Notes under the pieces: generated by a model
Seen by the model: the letters and a program-made list of their open reading frames with translations, nothing else
What the model was told of the DNA's origin: nothing
Databases searched by the model: none
Program-made: the position numbers and the translations under genes
Shown: positions 2 to 6,968 of the stretch, piece after piece
How positions within the stretch are numbered: position 1 is the stretch's first letter
Layout of the letters: each line of letters opens with the position of its first letter
Origin: Desulfobulbaceae bacterium
Lineage (GTDB): Bacteria > Desulfobacterota > Desulfobulbia > Desulfobulbales > Desulfocapsaceae
Assembly: GCA_008933635.1 (NCBI GenBank)
Contig: WBUQ01000021.1
Coordinates: forward strand, 1 to 40,807
DNA: 40,807 bases
Direction of reading: 5' to 3'

Positions 2-1084
2 AATGATGCCCTGCTGCATCTCAACCTCGGGGCAATCCGGGAGGAGCAGGGGGATATCCCTGCGGCTGAATCCTGCTACAGGCGTGCGATGGAACTTGAG
101 CCCGGCAACGCCAAGGCGCTCAACAACATGGGGAAGGTCCTGCAGCGGCAGGGGCGGGGCGCGGAGGGGGAAAAATACCTCCGCTGGGCCCTGCAGCTGG
201 CCCCGGATTATCCTCTCGCCCTGAACAACCTGGGGGTCATCTGCAGTGGCCAGGGGCGGCATGACGAGGCCCTGGCCTGTTTCCTCCGGGCCCTGGAACT
301 GGAGCCGCAGTCGGTCAACGCCCTGTACAACGCCGCCGGGGCCTGCAACTGCCTGAACCAGCAAGACGAGGCCATTTCCCATCTGCGGCGGCTACTGGAG
401 CTGCGGCCGGATCACGCCCCGGCCCGCCACATGCTGGCGGCCCTTTCCGGCGAGACCACCGAGACGGCGCCCCGGGCCTATGTCGAGGAGACCTTCGATG
501 CCTACGCCGAACGATTCGACCGGCACCTGACCGAACACCTACACTATGCCGTACCGACGGTCCTGCAGGAAATGGTGTCCGCCGCTCTGGGAAATGGACA
601 GCGGGTCGGAATGGCGATCGACCTCGGCTGCGGCACGGGGCTGGCCGGTGAGGCCTTCCGTCCTCTCGCCGTACAACTGCACGGGATAGACATTTCTGCC
701 GGGATGCTGGCGAAGGCCGCGGCGAAAGGTATCTATGACCGGCTGGAGCGCGAGGACCTCGGCCAGTGGCTCGACAACTGCGGGCAGAAGTATGACCTGT
801 TTGTCGCCGCCGACGTCTTTGTCTACGTCGGCAGGCTGGATGGGGTGTTCGCCTCCCTGGGGCGCTGCGCGGCTGCGGGCGCCTTTTTTGCCTTTTCGGT
901 CGAACACAGTGGCGAAGGGGGGGATTATCTCCTCAGGCCTTCCGGCCGTTACGCCCACTCGCCCGACTATATCGAGAGGCTTGCCGGCGCGCATGGCTGG
1001 TCGGTGGTGGACCGGCGGCATCAGGGAACCCGTCGCGAACAGGGGAAGTGGATCGAAGGCGATCTCTTCCTACTCCGTCGGTAA
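2..1084 (+). CDS. TPR-repeat SAM-dependent methyltransferase (5' end outside the window)
   Basis: The frame is open from the first bases of the window, so the start lies upstream. The visible part (about 360 residues) begins with tandem tetratricopeptide repeats, recognisable by repeated A-L-N-N-L-G and A-L-E-L-E-P blocks over roughly the first 140 residues. A class I methyltransferase domain follows; its SAM-binding motif I reads DLGCGTGLAGEAF and the motif II region reads LHGIDIS. Such fusions are usually annotated as predicted TPR methyltransferases; the substrate is unknown. The TPR part probably binds a partner protein. It ends 9 bp from the convergent MerR gene. Family confident, function unknown. 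Confidence 0.85.
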   Translation, partial: NDALLHLNLGAIREEQGDIPAAESCYRRAMELEPGNAKALNNMGKVLQRQGRGAEGEKYLRWALQLAPDYPLALNNLGVICSGQGRHDEALACFLRALELEPQSVNALYNAAGACNCLNQQDEAISHLRRLLELRPDHAPARHMLAALSGETTETAPRAYVEETFDAYAERFDRHLTEHLHYAVPTVLQEMVSAALGNGQRVGMAIDLGCGTGLAGEAFRPLAVQLHGIDISAGMLAKAAAKGIYDRLEREDLGQWLDNCGQKYDLFVAADVFVYVGRLDGVFASLGRCAAAGAFFAFSVEHSGEGGDYLLRPSGRYAHSPDYIERLAGAHGWSVVDRRHQGTRREQGKWIEGDLFLLRR

Positions 1085-1093
1085 ATGTGTCGG

Positions 1094-1660
1094 CTACGGT
1101 TGTGCCGCCGGCGGCCCCTGCGGCTGCCAGGTCCTTGACCAAGCCCGGATACGGTCGACAGACTCCTCGTCAACGCCGAGCGACAACAGGAAATGACGAT
1201 GGGCTTCGGGTGCGGATTTCTCGAATTCGAAATGCCAGCGATGCATCCCTTGTTCATCCAGGCCCGCGGTCGCCAGCATGCTTGTCCATTGTTTCCTGGT
1301 CAGGGCGACGGCCGGTTCCTGGCCGCCGAGATCCGGATGACGCAGCAATTTCAGGGTGATCTGCTGCTGAGCTTGCAACTGTCTGATTTCGCCGGCTATC
1401 TGCTCCAGGCGGCGCCTGAGGATTGTCTGCGACAGGCGCGGGTCGGCGGCGAGGATGCCAGCGATATCCGCAAGCGCCAGCCCTGCCCGGCGCAGCCGGC
1501 AGATCTCCTGCAGCCTCTCCAGTTCCTTTTCTCCGTAAACCCTGTAGTTGGAGGCCGAGCGGCCACATGGCCGGAGCAGACCGATCCGGCTGTAGTAGAG
1601 CAGGGTTGAGCGGGACAGCCCGCACTGCCCTGCCAGCTCGCCGATCGAATAGTTCTTCAT
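1094..1660 (-). CDS. MerR-family transcriptional regulator
   Basis: 188 residues. The N-terminus is a MerR winged helix: YSIGELAGQCGLSRSTLLYY, then a wing with NYRVYGEKELERL. A helical dimerisation segment (about 75-115) follows. The C-terminal part (about 125-180), with RWHFEFEKSAPEAHRHFL, is a conserved effector-region type seen in MerR proteins of unknown ligand. No cysteine cluster typical of metal-sensing MerR members is visible. It is the second gene after the SRPBCC gene, with a 6-bp gap, and its Shine-Dalgarno AGGAG lies in that junction. It probably regulates its own operon through the 19-bp-spacer promoter upstream. The inducer is not predictable. Confidence 0.85.
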   Translation of the reverse strand: MKNYSIGELAGQCGLSRSTLLYYSRIGLLRPCGRSASNYRVYGEKELERLQEICRLRRAGLALADIAGILAADPRLSQTILRRRLEQIAGEIRQLQAQQQITLKLLRHPDLGGQEPAVALTRKQWTSMLATAGLDEQGMHRWHFEFEKSAPEAHRHFLLSLGVDEESVDRIRAWSRTWQPQGPPAAQP

Positions 1661-2261: not shown

Positions 2262-2825
2262 TCAGAACAGATAGCCGTAACGGATGCCGAGGGTGTCGAG
2301 TCCTTCGTTGGGGTCGGCCAGATAGCCGTTCGACATGTGATCGAACATCAGCAGCAGCCGGCTGTGGTCTGTGATGCAGTAGCCGATTTCGGCCGAGATA
2401 TGGAACAGCAGGGTGCTGCCCAGTTGTTTGCGGTCAGGCGCCAGGAGATTGTCGGTCTCGCCGTCGTGGAGGGCAAGTCCCAGGCCGAGGTCGAGGAGCA
2501 CGCCGTTCCGCCAGAGATACTGCCAGACGCCGCCGCCGTAGATCTTGCTGGTGTTGCCGCGGTCGCTCACCGACACGCCGAGATTGGGGCGGAGGGTGCC
2601 GTGCCAGAGTGCCAGGCTCGGGGTGAAGACCAGTTCGGCGTTGAGATCGACGCCATCCTCCCGGGAAGTGCCGCTCCACAGGTTGTCGGTATCGTGGTCG
2701 AGGACGCCGGCGCGGATCTCATGCAGCCAGGATTGGCCTTCCCCGCTGTCTGCCTGCTGAGGCAGGAGAAAGGAGCACAGCGCTGCAAGCAGGACGAGGC
2801 GGGGGAGCAGGTTTGGACGTGTCAC
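2262..2825 (-). CDS. pagL: PagL-like lipid A 3-O-deacylase (outer membrane)
   Basis: 187 residues from a GTG start at 2825, which has GGAGG 4 bases upstream; an ATG at 2855 would add 10 residues. A signal peptide (hydrophobic LVLLAALCSFLL) is followed by a beta-rich barrel ending in terminal Phe, as in outer-membrane barrels. The active-site region FDHMSNG holds His163 and Ser165 (numbered from the GTG), matching the PagL catalytic His-x-Ser. PagL uses these with a Glu 14 residues after the His; here that place is Asp177. Family members remove the 3-linked acyl chain of lipid A. It lies downstream of the opg genes but has its own promoter. Confidence 0.8.
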   Translation of the reverse strand: MTRPNLLPRLVLLAALCSFLLPQQADSGEGQSWLHEIRAGVLDHDTDNLWSGTSREDGVDLNAELVFTPSLALWHGTLRPNLGVSVSDRGNTSKIYGGGVWQYLWRNGVLLDLGLGLALHDGETDNLLAPDRKQLGSTLLFHISAEIGYCITDHSRLLLMFDHMSNGYLADPNEGLDTLGIRYGYLF

Positions 2826-2896
2826 GTTTCCTCCGGGGTTGCAGGGATGGCGCATCGGATACTCCCCGAGGCCGGGCCTCGATGGATGTGCGCCGT

Positions 2897-2981: not shown

Positions 2982-5099
2982 CTACCCCAGGCGGTCACTG
3001 GGGAGCAATGACGCCCAGCGGCTCTCCCTGTCGGCCAGCCAGACGGCCTGGTGCAGCCACTCCAGCGACTCGCTGTCGCGGGCGAGGATGGCCAGCTCCC
3101 CGGTGGTCAGGGCCGCCGGACCTTCTTTCAGGCAGAGATCCCGGAGTCGTGCCAGCATCTCTTCGCCGGCCCGGCCACGCCGTCGCCGGCCAAGTGACCG
3201 GTGCAGCCTGTTGATCGCCGGGTCGATGACCGCCTCGGCGAACAATGACAGGCCCCCTGTCGGCACACAGGCAGTCAGCGGTCTCTCCAGAGCCCGGAGC
3301 AGGTGGCTGTCCTCCAGTTCCTCGGCCACCAGCAGCAAACCCCATCTTCGCAACTGCTGACCGGTGCTGATGCGGCCGAGGAAGATGGAGATCGGCGCTG
3401 CCATGACCAGGGGGATGACCACCGGCAGAGACCAGAGAAAAAAGCGTTCCTCAAGCCTGAAGGCGAAGATCGCCCAGCAGATGGCGAGAATGGTGCCCGG
3501 CAGCTGGTTGACCAACGTTGCCCTCCAGCCGGTTTCACTGCCGCGGTTCTGGCCGGCCCAGAGCAGACTGAGGTTGAACAGGGCCCGGATCACATACCGG
3601 CTGTGGGCCAGCATGCGGGTCGGGGCCAGCAGGGCCGAGATCAGGCTTTCCAGCAGGATGCCGGCCGTAAGGCGCAGGAGGCCGCCGAATTCCCCCAGCC
3701 TGCGGTGTACCACGGCGTCGATGAAGGCCAGCAGTTTCGGCAGCAGGAGCAGGAAAAAGGTGCTGGAGGCCAGGGCCAGGGCGAGTTCGGGATGCCATTC
3801 CGGCCAGACCGGGAAAGGGCTGTGTCGGGCCGGGAAATAGTTGATCGGCTGCAGGACCAGGCGGGTCGTTTCGACCGTGGCGAGGATCAGGAAGGCCAGC
3901 CACAGCGGCGAAGCCAGGTAGGACATGGCGCCGTTGAGGAAGGCCAGGCGATGGGCCATGCGGATTCTCGGGGCGAAGAAAAGGAGCCGGAGGTGCTGCA
4001 GGTTGCCCTTTGACCAGCGCCGGTCGCGGGTCAGGTCTTCCACCAGGGTCGGCGGCGATTCCTCGAACGACTCCTGCAGTCCCGGTTCGAGCCAGATTTC
4101 GTAGCCGGCACGGGCCATATAGGCGGCCTCGACAAAATCATGACTCAGGATCGGGCCGCCGAACAGGCCGCGGCCCGGGAGTTTTTTCAGCCCGCAGTGG
4201 CGCATGAAGGGCCTGCAGCGAAGTATGGCGTTGTGGCCCCAGTAGGTCGCCTCGCCGAGCTGCAGCGCTGCGAGGCCGGTGGAGAAGATCGGTCCGTAGA
4301 GGCGGTTGGCGAACTGCTGGGTCCGGGCGAACAGCGATCGGGCGTTGACCAGGGCCGGGGCCGTCTGGAGGATGCCGATGCGGGGCTCGGCCTCCATCAG
4401 GCGGACCATCCGGACGATGGTCCCGCCCGCCATCAGGCTGTCGGCGTCAAGGACGACAGCGTAGGCATAGCTGCTGCCCCAGCGGCGGAAGAAGTCGGCG
4501 ATGTTGCCGCTCTTGTGCTTCAGGTTGATCTGCCGCCGGCGGTAAAACAGCCTGCCTTCCGCGCCAAGTTCGCGGCAGAGCTGGTGCCAGGCCTTCTGTT
4601 CGGCCAGCCAGATCTCGGGATCACGGCTGTCGGAGAGGATGAAGAAGTCGAAACAGGCAAGCTGGCCGGTCGCCTCGACCGACTGGTAAACAGCCCGCAG
4701 GCCGGCGAATGTCCGTTCGATCGGCTCGTGGTAGATCGGCATGACGATCGCCGTGCGGGCCAGCGGGACGGCTTCGAGGCTTGCGGCTGGGTGCCGTCGC
4801 AGCGGCGACAGGCGGTCGCCGCCGGTCAGCCGGATCAGGAAGCCGAAGATCCCGAACCAGGAGCCGACCGAGATGCCGAAGAAGAGCAGGCTGAAGACGG
4901 CGGCGAGGCTGATTTCGATCGGGTCGGCGCCATGGTACGGCAGTACCCTGACCACCCCCCAGGCGGCAATGCCGCACTGGCCGATGACGATCGTGGCGAG
5001 CAGGGAACGGCGCAGCAGGGCGGCTCGCCGCCATGGTGCCGATGTCGCCGTCGCTTCCGATGATGCCGTCAGCCGTCCGGCGCCAGCCGCCTGGAGCAT
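2982..5099 (-). CDS. opgH: Glucans biosynthesis glucosyltransferase H (catalytic part)
   Basis: 705 residues. Membrane glycosyltransferase family 2 enzyme that makes the beta-glucan backbone of osmoregulated periplasmic glucans from UDP-glucose. Visible motifs: FFILSDS near 153-158, DAD at about 218-220, LSHDFVEAA near 319-326 and RDRRW near 358-362, the D,D,D,QxxRW-type set. Hydrophobic segments flank the catalytic domain, two before it and several after it. Known homologues (E. coli OpgH is about 847 residues) carry a cytoplasmic N-terminal region of about 140 residues that is absent here; the preceding small ORF seems to encode it. The ATG at 5099 overlaps that ORF's stop (TGATG); a GTG at 5102 is also possible. 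Translation is probably coupled. Confidence 0.93.
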   Translation of the reverse strand: MLQAAGAGRLTASSEATATSAPWRRAALLRRSLLATIVIGQCGIAAWGVVRVLPYHGADPIEISLAAVFSLLFFGISVGSWFGIFGFLIRLTGGDRLSPLRRHPAASLEAVPLARTAIVMPIYHEPIERTFAGLRAVYQSVEATGQLACFDFFILSDSRDPEIWLAEQKAWHQLCRELGAEGRLFYRRRQINLKHKSGNIADFFRRWGSSYAYAVVLDADSLMAGGTIVRMVRLMEAEPRIGILQTAPALVNARSLFARTQQFANRLYGPIFSTGLAALQLGEATYWGHNAILRCRPFMRHCGLKKLPGRGLFGGPILSHDFVEAAYMARAGYEIWLEPGLQESFEESPPTLVEDLTRDRRWSKGNLQHLRLLFFAPRIRMAHRLAFLNGAMSYLASPLWLAFLILATVETTRLVLQPINYFPARHSPFPVWPEWHPELALALASSTFFLLLLPKLLAFIDAVVHRRLGEFGGLLRLTAGILLESLISALLAPTRMLAHSRYVIRALFNLSLLWAGQNRGSETGWRATLVNQLPGTILAICWAIFAFRLEERFFLWSLPVVIPLVMAAPISIFLGRISTGQQLRRWGLLLVAEELEDSHLLRALERPLTACVPTGGLSLFAEAVIDPAINRLHRSLGRRRRGRAGEEMLARLRDLCLKEGPAALTTGELAILARDSESLEWLHQAVWLADRESRWASLLPSDRLG

Positions 5100-5350
5100 C
5101 ACACGGCACCGTAGCCCATACTGCTGCGCCGGATAGGCGGGCGGGCAGCGGGTATCGGGGTCTCTGCAAGTTCGAGGCGACGGGGCAGTTCCACAACGGC
5201 CTGCCGTATCGGGTCGGGCGTGTCGGCGACCAGGATTTCCTCGATCAAACGCAGCGCCGCCAGGGCCCTGTCCCGGGTCAGCTGGATCCCGCTCCCCGTC
5301 AGGTACCCGAAAGTTCTTGAAAAAAGGTCGTCATAGGCGATGTCCCGCAT
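5099..5350 (-). CDS. Small protein between opgG and opgH, probable detached OpgH N-terminal domain
   Basis: 83 residues, soluble, no signal peptide. AAGGAG lies 7 bases before the ATG, and the start is 1 bp after the opgG stop, so it is a convincing gene. It ends P-P-I-R-R-S-S-M-G-Y-G-A-V. From memory, gammaproteobacterial OpgH proteins carry a similar PPIRR or RSSM segment just before their first membrane helix (E. coli ATRSSMFPDPW). The order and position match: this ORF stops where the truncated OpgH begins. I infer that OpgH is split into two translationally coupled polypeptides. Alternatives are an old frameshift in one opgH, or an unrelated accessory subunit. Confidence 0.7.
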   Translation of the reverse strand: MRDIAYDDLFSRTFGYLTGSGIQLTRDRALAALRLIEEILVADTPDPIRQAVVELPRRLELAETPIPAARPPIRRSSMGYGAV

Positions 5351-5351
5351 G

Positions 5352-6968
5352 TCAGTCTCCTTCCGGGCGAATGTCGTTGTCGGCGGGCAGCCTGTAGGTC
5401 CAGGTTTCCGTCAGGGTATCCACGCCGCTCTGCAGGAAGGCGCGGAGAGAGAGCGGCTTGTCGGCCGCGGGGCGGGCGAGCATCGACAGCCGCCAGCATC
5501 TGTGCGCCGGCACGTATTCGACGTAGTGGTCCAGGATCTCCCCGTCGTCCAGGGCGGTGACGGTCGCCGTGACCCTGGCCCGGCTTGAAAGTCCGTCCAG
5601 CCTGCCGCCGGTGAAGTCGACGACCAGCCGGTAGGCCCCTTCCGTGGTCCCGCCGCCGATCCGGCTGCCGTCACCGACCAGGGTATTGACCACCCGCCCC
5701 ATCTGTTCCCCGGTAATCTGGTGATTGCCGAATTGCAGGACATACTCGAGGGCCAGAGGGGCTTCGGGGCTGACCGGCCGGTCAGGTGTCCAGAAGGCGA
5801 CGATGTTGTCGTTGGTCTCGTCCTGCGTCGGCAGCTGCACCAGGACCACCCGGCCCTTGCCCCAGTCGCCGACCGGTTCAACCCAGGCGCTCGGCCGGCT
5901 GTGATATTGCGCCTCGCCGTCGAGATAGTCGCGGAAGTCGGTGTCGCGCTGCAGCAGGCCGAAACCGCGCACATTGTCGGTGGTGAAGGAGTCCATCTGC
6001 AGCGTTTTCGGGTTCAGCAGCGGTCGCCACAGCCACTCGCCGGTGCCCCCGTCGTGGATCAGCAGGCCGTCCGAATCGTGGACCTGGCGCCGCCATTCGC
6101 CGGCAGGGCGACCGGTGTTCTCGCCATAGAAAAACATGCTGGTCAGGGGTGCCAGACCCGGCAGCCCGAGCGGTTTGCGGGCGAAGAGCCTGGCCTTGAC
6201 GGCGACCGTGGTGGCGGTGCCGGGGGTGATGGTGAAGGCGTAGGCGCCGGTTGCACTCGGTCCGTCGAGGAGGGCGTAGACCTGCATTTGCCTGGCCTCG
6301 GGAGAGGGACGAAGCAGCCAGAATTCGACGAAGGAGGGAAACTCCTCGCCGGAAGGCAGGCCGGTGTCGAGGGCCATGCCGCGGGCCGACAACCCGAAGC
6401 CGTTGTCGCGGCCGACCCCCCGGAAATAACTGGCCCCGGCAAAGACCAGAAACTGGTTGCGCTCTCCCTGTCCCTTGAGCGGAAAGGTCAGTTTGAAGCC
6501 GGCGTGGCCGAGGTCCGGCGGAATGCGTTTTGCCAGGTTCGGATCGGAAAAGGTGAAGGCATCGCGCCGGAAGGGCAGGGGCCTGCTGCCCTCGGCATCG
6601 ACGATGTTGATCCGCACCGCATGGCCGTAGAACAGCCCGGGGGGAATCAGCATAACCTGGAAATTCGCACCCGTCTCCCGCCACAGGCTCTTTTCCGGGT
6701 CGAAGCGGATGTCCTGGTACTGGCTGTAGTCCAGCTCCCGCATGAACTTCGGCACGGCGGGAGGGGCCTGAAACGGTGAGGTGGCGAGCGTTTCGGCCCT
6801 GTTGATGACGGTTGCGAATTCAAAGGCTGCAAGGGAGTGGGGGAAACCGGCCAGGAGCAGCAGGAGGAGAGCCGTCCGGCGGATCTGGGTGATCGGCAGG
6901 ACTGGCCGGGAGCGGAGGCTGATACGGTCGTCAGGTCGTCGGGCAAGGAGCTTCGGGAACGGTGTCAT
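5352..6968 (-). CDS. opgG: Glucans biosynthesis protein G/D family (periplasmic)
   Basis: 538 residues. An N-terminal signal sequence (hydrophobic TALLLLLLAGF, cleavage near SLAA-FEF) directs it to the periplasm. The mature part starts with FEFATVINRAETLATSPF and continues with the conserved LDYSQYQDIRFDPEKSLW block, as in OpgG/OpgD proteins. These proteins act with OpgH to branch or process periplasmic glucans. The start at 6968 has no clear Shine-Dalgarno and gives about 30 residues before the hydrophobic core, so a later start is possible. It begins 31 bp after the chemoreceptor stop and ends 1 bp before the small ORF, so the genes probably form one operon. Confidence 0.92.
   Translation of the reverse strand: MTPFPKLLARRPDDRISLRSRPVLPITQIRRTALLLLLLAGFPHSLAAFEFATVINRAETLATSPFQAPPAVPKFMRELDYSQYQDIRFDPEKSLWRETGANFQVMLIPPGLFYGHAVRINIVDAEGSRPLPFRRDAFTFSDPNLAKRIPPDLGHAGFKLTFPLKGQGERNQFLVFAGASYFRGVGRDNGFGLSARGMALDTGLPSGEEFPSFVEFWLLRPSPEARQMQVYALLDGPSATGAYAFTITPGTATTVAVKARLFARKPLGLPGLAPLTSMFFYGENTGRPAGEWRRQVHDSDGLLIHDGGTGEWLWRPLLNPKTLQMDSFTTDNVRGFGLLQRDTDFRDYLDGEAQYHSRPSAWVEPVGDWGKGRVVLVQLPTQDETNDNIVAFWTPDRPVSPEAPLALEYVLQFGNHQITGEQMGRVVNTLVGDGSRIGGGTTEGAYRLVVDFTGGRLDGLSSRARVTATVTALDDGEILDHYVEYVPAHRCWRLSMLARPAADKPLSLRAFLQSGVDTLTETWTYRLPADNDIRPEGD

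Follow-up and report, generated by a model that had tools for sequence, protein, structure and literature searches.

The 83-codon open reading frame (ORF) that lies between opgG and opgH in the window, the 40,807-nucleotide stretch of Desulfobulbaceae DNA analysed here, probably encodes an OpgI-type subunit, that is, a stand-alone N-terminal subunit of the OpgH glucosyltransferase. This reading, drawn from the sequence and by analogy, is the best explanation of the conservation of the ORF, its dN/dS, its profile similarity to OpgH N-terminal domains (N-domains), the alternation of split and fused forms, the terminal motif, the helix layout, the gene order in Sulfitobacter and a published complementation. 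Subunits of the OpgI kind are known but poorly understood, and that of the window is a variant.

The three genes are read from the minus strand in the order opgG, small ORF, opgH (Table 1), and this opgG is the sole MdoG gene found in the genome. The small ORF occupies the place that an OpgI-type subunit would have, between opgG and a short opgH. The original prediction described these genes as joined by a 1-bp gap behind a strong AAGGAG and by a TGATG overlap, and all of these are seen in the sequence: one base pair separates the end of opgG (5352) from the start of the small ORF, and the TGA of the small ORF (5099-5101) overlaps the ATG of opgH (5097-5099). An alternative opgH start, a GTG at 5102, is possible. 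The AAGGAG is retained as (A)AGGAG in all three sister genomes, and the stop-to-start spacing is -16 to +25 bp in nearly all split loci.

Table 1. Features of the opgG-small ORF-opgH locus, in window coordinates
Feature	Position	Strand	Details and basis
opgG (mdoG)	5352..6968	-	538 aa; Pfam MdoG PF04349, E=2.8e-178
AAGGAG, ribosome-binding-like site of the small ORF	5357..5362	-	within the 3' end of opgG; sequence
Probable OpgI-like stand-alone OpgH N-terminal subunit, 83 aa	5099..5350	-	conservation, purifying selection, AlphaFold2, profile similarity
Tail motif PPIRRSSM, residues 71-78 of the small protein	5117..5140	-	counterpart motif in 25 related loci
TGATG stop-start overlap of the small ORF and opgH	5097..5101	-	sequence
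opgH core without N-terminal region	2982..5099	-	NCBIfam NF003958 (MdoH), E=5.9e-255

The upstream neighbour of opgG, also read from the minus strand, is a gene for a methyl-accepting-chemotaxis-type signalling protein (PF00015; 7000-8949). Immediately downstream of opgH is a gene for a PagL-type lipid A 3-O-deacylase (PF09411, E 1.2e-15; 2262-2855, minus strand); opgH is followed by a similar ORF in two of the sister genomes (L034 and L032) and by a different one in the third (L031). A MerR-family regulator gene (1094-1660, minus strand) sits beside a gene for a TPR-methyltransferase fusion protein (89-1084, plus strand).

At 705-706 aa, compared with 847 aa in E. coli, the window OpgH is a clear member of the MdoH subfamily NF003958, a model of 704 positions that it matches from position 5 (847.8 bits, cut-off 419). 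Its match to the longer model NF003955 starts only at position 131. Together, these matches indicate that the usual N-terminal region is absent from the OpgH chain, as had been predicted. The GT-A D-x-D motif is present as DAD at residues 219-221, the form also given for Caulobacter OpgH (PMC11389396), and both it and the RRW region are invariant in the genus. A PDB sequence search with the window OpgH matched nothing. The short-OpgH subfamily has been recognised before, but its partner ORF has not: NF003958 covers the short enzyme only, and the partner is without a model and is labelled hypothetical protein in the public records examined (Leptospira kobayashii, Sulfitobacter).

The small ORF was found in three sister Desulfobulbaceae genomes at 52-57% identity (Desulfoprunum sp. 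C5 bin 56, Desulfobulbus sp. Tol-SR and one Desulfobulbaceae MAG), which are all the sister genomes having opgH, and in 21 gammaproteobacterial loci, always directly before opgH. The window-type set comprises 25 loci. With dN/dS values of 0.05-0.23 and changes between relatives falling mostly at third codon positions, the substitution pattern indicates that the small ORF is under purifying selection. Overlapping ORFs that together reach the length of one gene typically point to a frameshift, and the locus could be read as a normal single-chain OpgH broken by a frameshift or sequencing error, or decaying as a pseudogene. The probability of this is negligible, because the ORF is separate in all 25 related loci, is under selection and has a ribosome-binding-like site of its own. 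Moreover, the junction frame offsets differ among the sister genomes (-1, -4, -8 and +5), so a single indel cannot account for the split. No relative with a single ORF differing by one indel, the alternative raised with the original prediction, was found, and a frameshift or assembly error at 5099-5102 was ruled out by the conservation and the differing junction frames. It is also very improbable that the ORF is a leader whose translation, rather than its product, sets OpgH synthesis. The tight stop-start coupling at nearly all split loci would suit such a leader, but the amino-acid sequence is conserved, dN/dS is well below 1, and in other bacteria the enzyme itself carries this region as a fusion.

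In single-profile searches of Pfam and NCBIfam, neither the small protein nor the longer split ORFs of other bacteria matched a family. The longer split ORFs (95-198 aa) aligned with fused N-domains over nearly their full length in hhalign (probability 97%, P 5.7e-11), and the split ORF of L144 shares 42% identity over 131 aa with the fused domain of L153 (E 7e-20). One domain thus exists in both states, and the homology of the longer split ORFs to fused OpgH N-domains is clear from their sequences. The window-type proteins, from 25 loci, have shorter and more derived sequences. The profile-profile search against the OpgH N-terminus that had been suggested for the small protein gave a similarity: with the bridging sequences L169 and L180 excluded, the window-type group matched the split and fused N-domains at P 4.5e-5 (probability 69%), collinear over the whole protein. 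Against fused N-domains alone the probability was 46% (P 2.1e-4). An initial comparison with a small sequence set had given 20% (P 0.0012), and the match rose as sequences were added. The best of 58 controls, consisting of OpgG and OpgH segments from the same loci, reversed profiles and column-shuffled profiles, reached P 4.7e-3 in local mode; global-mode hhalign was set aside because one column-shuffled control gave P 7.9e-23. The helical part of the window-type proteins alone was not significantly similar to N-domains (P 0.02-0.05), and both halves of the small protein add to the match while neither is strong by itself. On these profiles, the window-type small protein is very likely homologous to the OpgH N-domain, with weaker support than the longer split ORFs have.

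The C-terminal tail carries a motif of the form P-x-[ILV]-x-R-x-[SP]-[MIL], which reads PPIRRSSM in the window and PPVNRGSIGYW or PPIVRGSIGYG in relatives, whose common core is P-[PAVR]-[ILV]-x-R-G-S-[IML]-x-Y. All 25 related loci carry a P-x-[ILV]-x-[RH]-G-S-[IVL]-like motif. The resemblance of PPIRRSSM to the segment before the first membrane helix of known OpgH proteins, on which the original prediction had drawn, is real, but it is weaker in these relatives. Window-type proteins end in a PPxxRGSIGY-like form. In the fused OpgH proteins of beta- and gammaproteobacteria the corresponding sequence is PPLxRxSMVPRPW, and another branch that includes alphaproteobacteria has the alternative PLxMPxQSL. 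The E. coli OpgH counterpart is RSSM at residues 86-89. Almost everywhere the motif occurs once per locus, in the small ORF where the genes are split and at the OpgH N-terminus where they are fused; it is absent from a few alphaproteobacterial OpgH proteins (L195, L215). In L056, which falls within the window's clade, PPIARSSLHYR is fused directly to OpgH and the helices are missing.

AlphaFold2 predicted three helices for the small protein (residues 3-19, 26-42 and 47-58), followed by a disordered, low-confidence tail that holds the motif (mean pLDDT 73). The model of the fused N-domain of L083 has helices at 18-26, 31-41 and 46-58, an extra short helix and a low-confidence motif stretch. Both models show three helices and a tail; they are of moderate confidence, and the agreement of their predicted layouts is suggestive only. 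A fold search of the PDB with the small-protein model gave no match (best E 4.5).

Of 321 gammaproteobacterial species genomes, sampled evenly, 50 had an OpgH with an E of at most 1e-80. In 49 of these loci the sequence preceding the OpgH core was read together, and the fiftieth (G065), which is L056, was read separately. Sorting by ORF position, motif and inspection by eye left 46 classifiable loci, with a separate ORF in 30, a fused N-domain in seven and the terminal motif alone fused in nine. In the 30 split loci the separate ORF takes up the stretch from opgG to the OpgH core. The split layout is not peculiar to the window genome and occurs commonly elsewhere. When 83 OpgH cores were placed on a tree, the separate and fused states needed five changes, at least four of which are forced by well-supported branches. 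If the separate state were ancestral, all five would be fusions, including one in the clade that holds E. coli and the betaproteobacteria; with an unrooted tree and partial sampling, this direction is a suggestion. The original prediction that OpgH is split, with its N-terminal domain made as a separate, coupled protein, is supported by the collinear profiles, the L144/L153 match and the conserved layout. Its wording of a detached domain may have the direction backwards, since separate ORFs are spread widely over the unrooted OpgH tree and fusion is the more parsimonious account, and the FtsZ role that it attached to the domain is not supported here (see below).

Several split loci have features of their own. 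In L160 (about 1081-1506 in opgH orientation) the N-domain ORF and opgH share a frame and are separated by one stop and about five codons, a near-fusion. The split ORFs of L165 and L166 (190 and 206 aa) have hydrophobic ends resembling membrane helices, as does the 122-aa Leptospira ORF in L196, and some stand-alone N-subunits may, judging from these ends, be membrane-anchored.

A two-chain arrangement has a precedent in R. sphaeroides, which has an opgGIH-opgC operon encoding OpgI (Cogez et al. 2002, as cited in PMC10514313 and PMC4726272) and whose opgI and opgH together complement an E. coli opgH deletion (PMC10514313). Like the small protein, OpgI is encoded between opgG and a short opgH, and it acts with OpgH, as the small protein would. 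Cogez et al. are said to have found that inactivation of opgG, opgI or opgH, each on its own, abolished glucan production. In Sulfitobacter (Rhodobacterales) the gene order is opgG, a 56-aa hypothetical protein, mdoH and opgC, the same order as in the R. sphaeroides operon. This 56-aa ORF ends in the alternative motif PLAMPRQSL, and its two NCBIfam matches, both weak, are to the N-terminus of MdoH models. Similar ORFs are found in three genomes with the closest OpgH proteins (L199-L201). Compared with the window type, the Rhodobacterales ORFs examined are mostly shorter, have little or no helical domain and carry the other form of the motif; the small ORF is likened to OpgI by gene order. In Leptospira kobayashii a hypothetical protein of 122 aa is encoded between a glucan biosynthesis protein and opgH, and its helical part ends in LTSMVPRN. 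A reading of OpgI as an OpgG paralogue was dropped on the gene order and PMC10514313.

We propose that coupled translation would place both chains side by side and in matched amounts. The small protein is predicted to fold as a three-helix domain, and this domain, above all its tail motif, would bind the cytoplasmic face of OpgH. The two chains would restore the architecture of the single-chain enzyme and do the job of E. coli OpgH, with the subunit, by analogy to R. sphaeroides OpgI, either needed for glucan backbone synthesis or tuning it.

Could the small protein instead be an unrelated partner of OpgH, such as an assembly factor or regulator, with a tail that is alike by chance or convergence? 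The non-significant match of the helices alone and the lack of a hit in the family libraries would fit, but we consider it unlikely, as the collinear profile similarity lies beyond all local-mode controls, L169 and L180 bridge the two groups, the genomic place is the same, three predicted helices precede the tail in the same order, and the homology of the longer split ORFs in that place is not in dispute. A different question is whether an N-domain of this identity has another job, chiefly as an FtsZ-binding regulator of cell size that is free of the enzyme. In E. coli, the N-terminal cytoplasmic domain of OpgH (residues 1-138) is reported to bind FtsZ, and residues 83-101, as a fusion, are reported to suffice for division inhibition (PMC3723540). 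The small protein shares with that domain its position before the first membrane helix and the terminal motif, but it is a separate 83-residue chain without the segment of about 40 residues that leads from the motif to the first membrane helix. The counterpart of its tail motif falls inside the division-inhibiting stretch, which speaks for such a regulator. In the same study, however, the N-domain still inhibited division when that 18-residue stretch carried alanine substitutions or was deleted, its deletion having no significant effect (PMC3723540). The OpgH of Caulobacter, which has no such extension, is not believed to act on FtsZ by this route (PMC11389396). The motif is also kept in loci without the helical domain and is linked to opgH everywhere, which fits a role on OpgH itself. 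The cell-size role suggested for the domain is not supported beyond the E. coli study, and its probability is low; the OpgI precedent points to glucan synthesis, a role that is favoured over one in division.

As an OpgI-type subunit, the small protein would give a likely identity to the unlabelled small gene that adjoins opgH in many bacteria, and a likely reason why R. sphaeroides needs opgI, which would provide in trans the part that E. coli OpgH carries in cis. One short motif, common across classes, is singled out as a target for mutation in the OpgH N-terminus. The function of the N-terminus in glucan synthesis and the conservation of its reported effect on FtsZ become testable in bacteria that keep the parts separate by nature, and the breadth and the motif make the feature more useful than a lone odd genome. 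More speculatively, and with less than even chances in our view, OpgH may generally be a two-part enzyme whose N-subunit was first separate and was fused several times, including in E. coli; the tail motif would be the docking part, and the division-inhibiting peptide of E. coli a docking motif out of context.

Among 57 relatives from the family and order, OpgH scored above the family cut-off only in members of the genus. In 297 genomes of the phylum, a set that did not include the sister genomes, which sat in another sample, the small protein was found only in the window genome, besides one weak, chance-like match. The nearest OpgH proteins outside the genus are from the marine gammaproteobacteria HdN1, Marinobacterium, Vreelandella and Halospina (56-60% identity), which also have the small ORF, and the OpgH tree nests the genus inside this group. 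Since opgH is missing from the other sampled genomes of the family, the whole opgG-small ORF-opgH cluster was probably acquired by this Desulfobulbaceae genus from marine gammaproteobacteria, horizontal transfer being the simplest account of the sequences. Further loci came from 194 genomes surveyed in the Marinobacterium order; these included three (L141-L143) with the small ORF and opgH and no opgG detected alongside, indicating that the small protein travels with opgH, not with opgG. The genes in these three loci are a second, diverged small ORF-opgH pair, the OpgH of which is 50-55% identical to that of the window.
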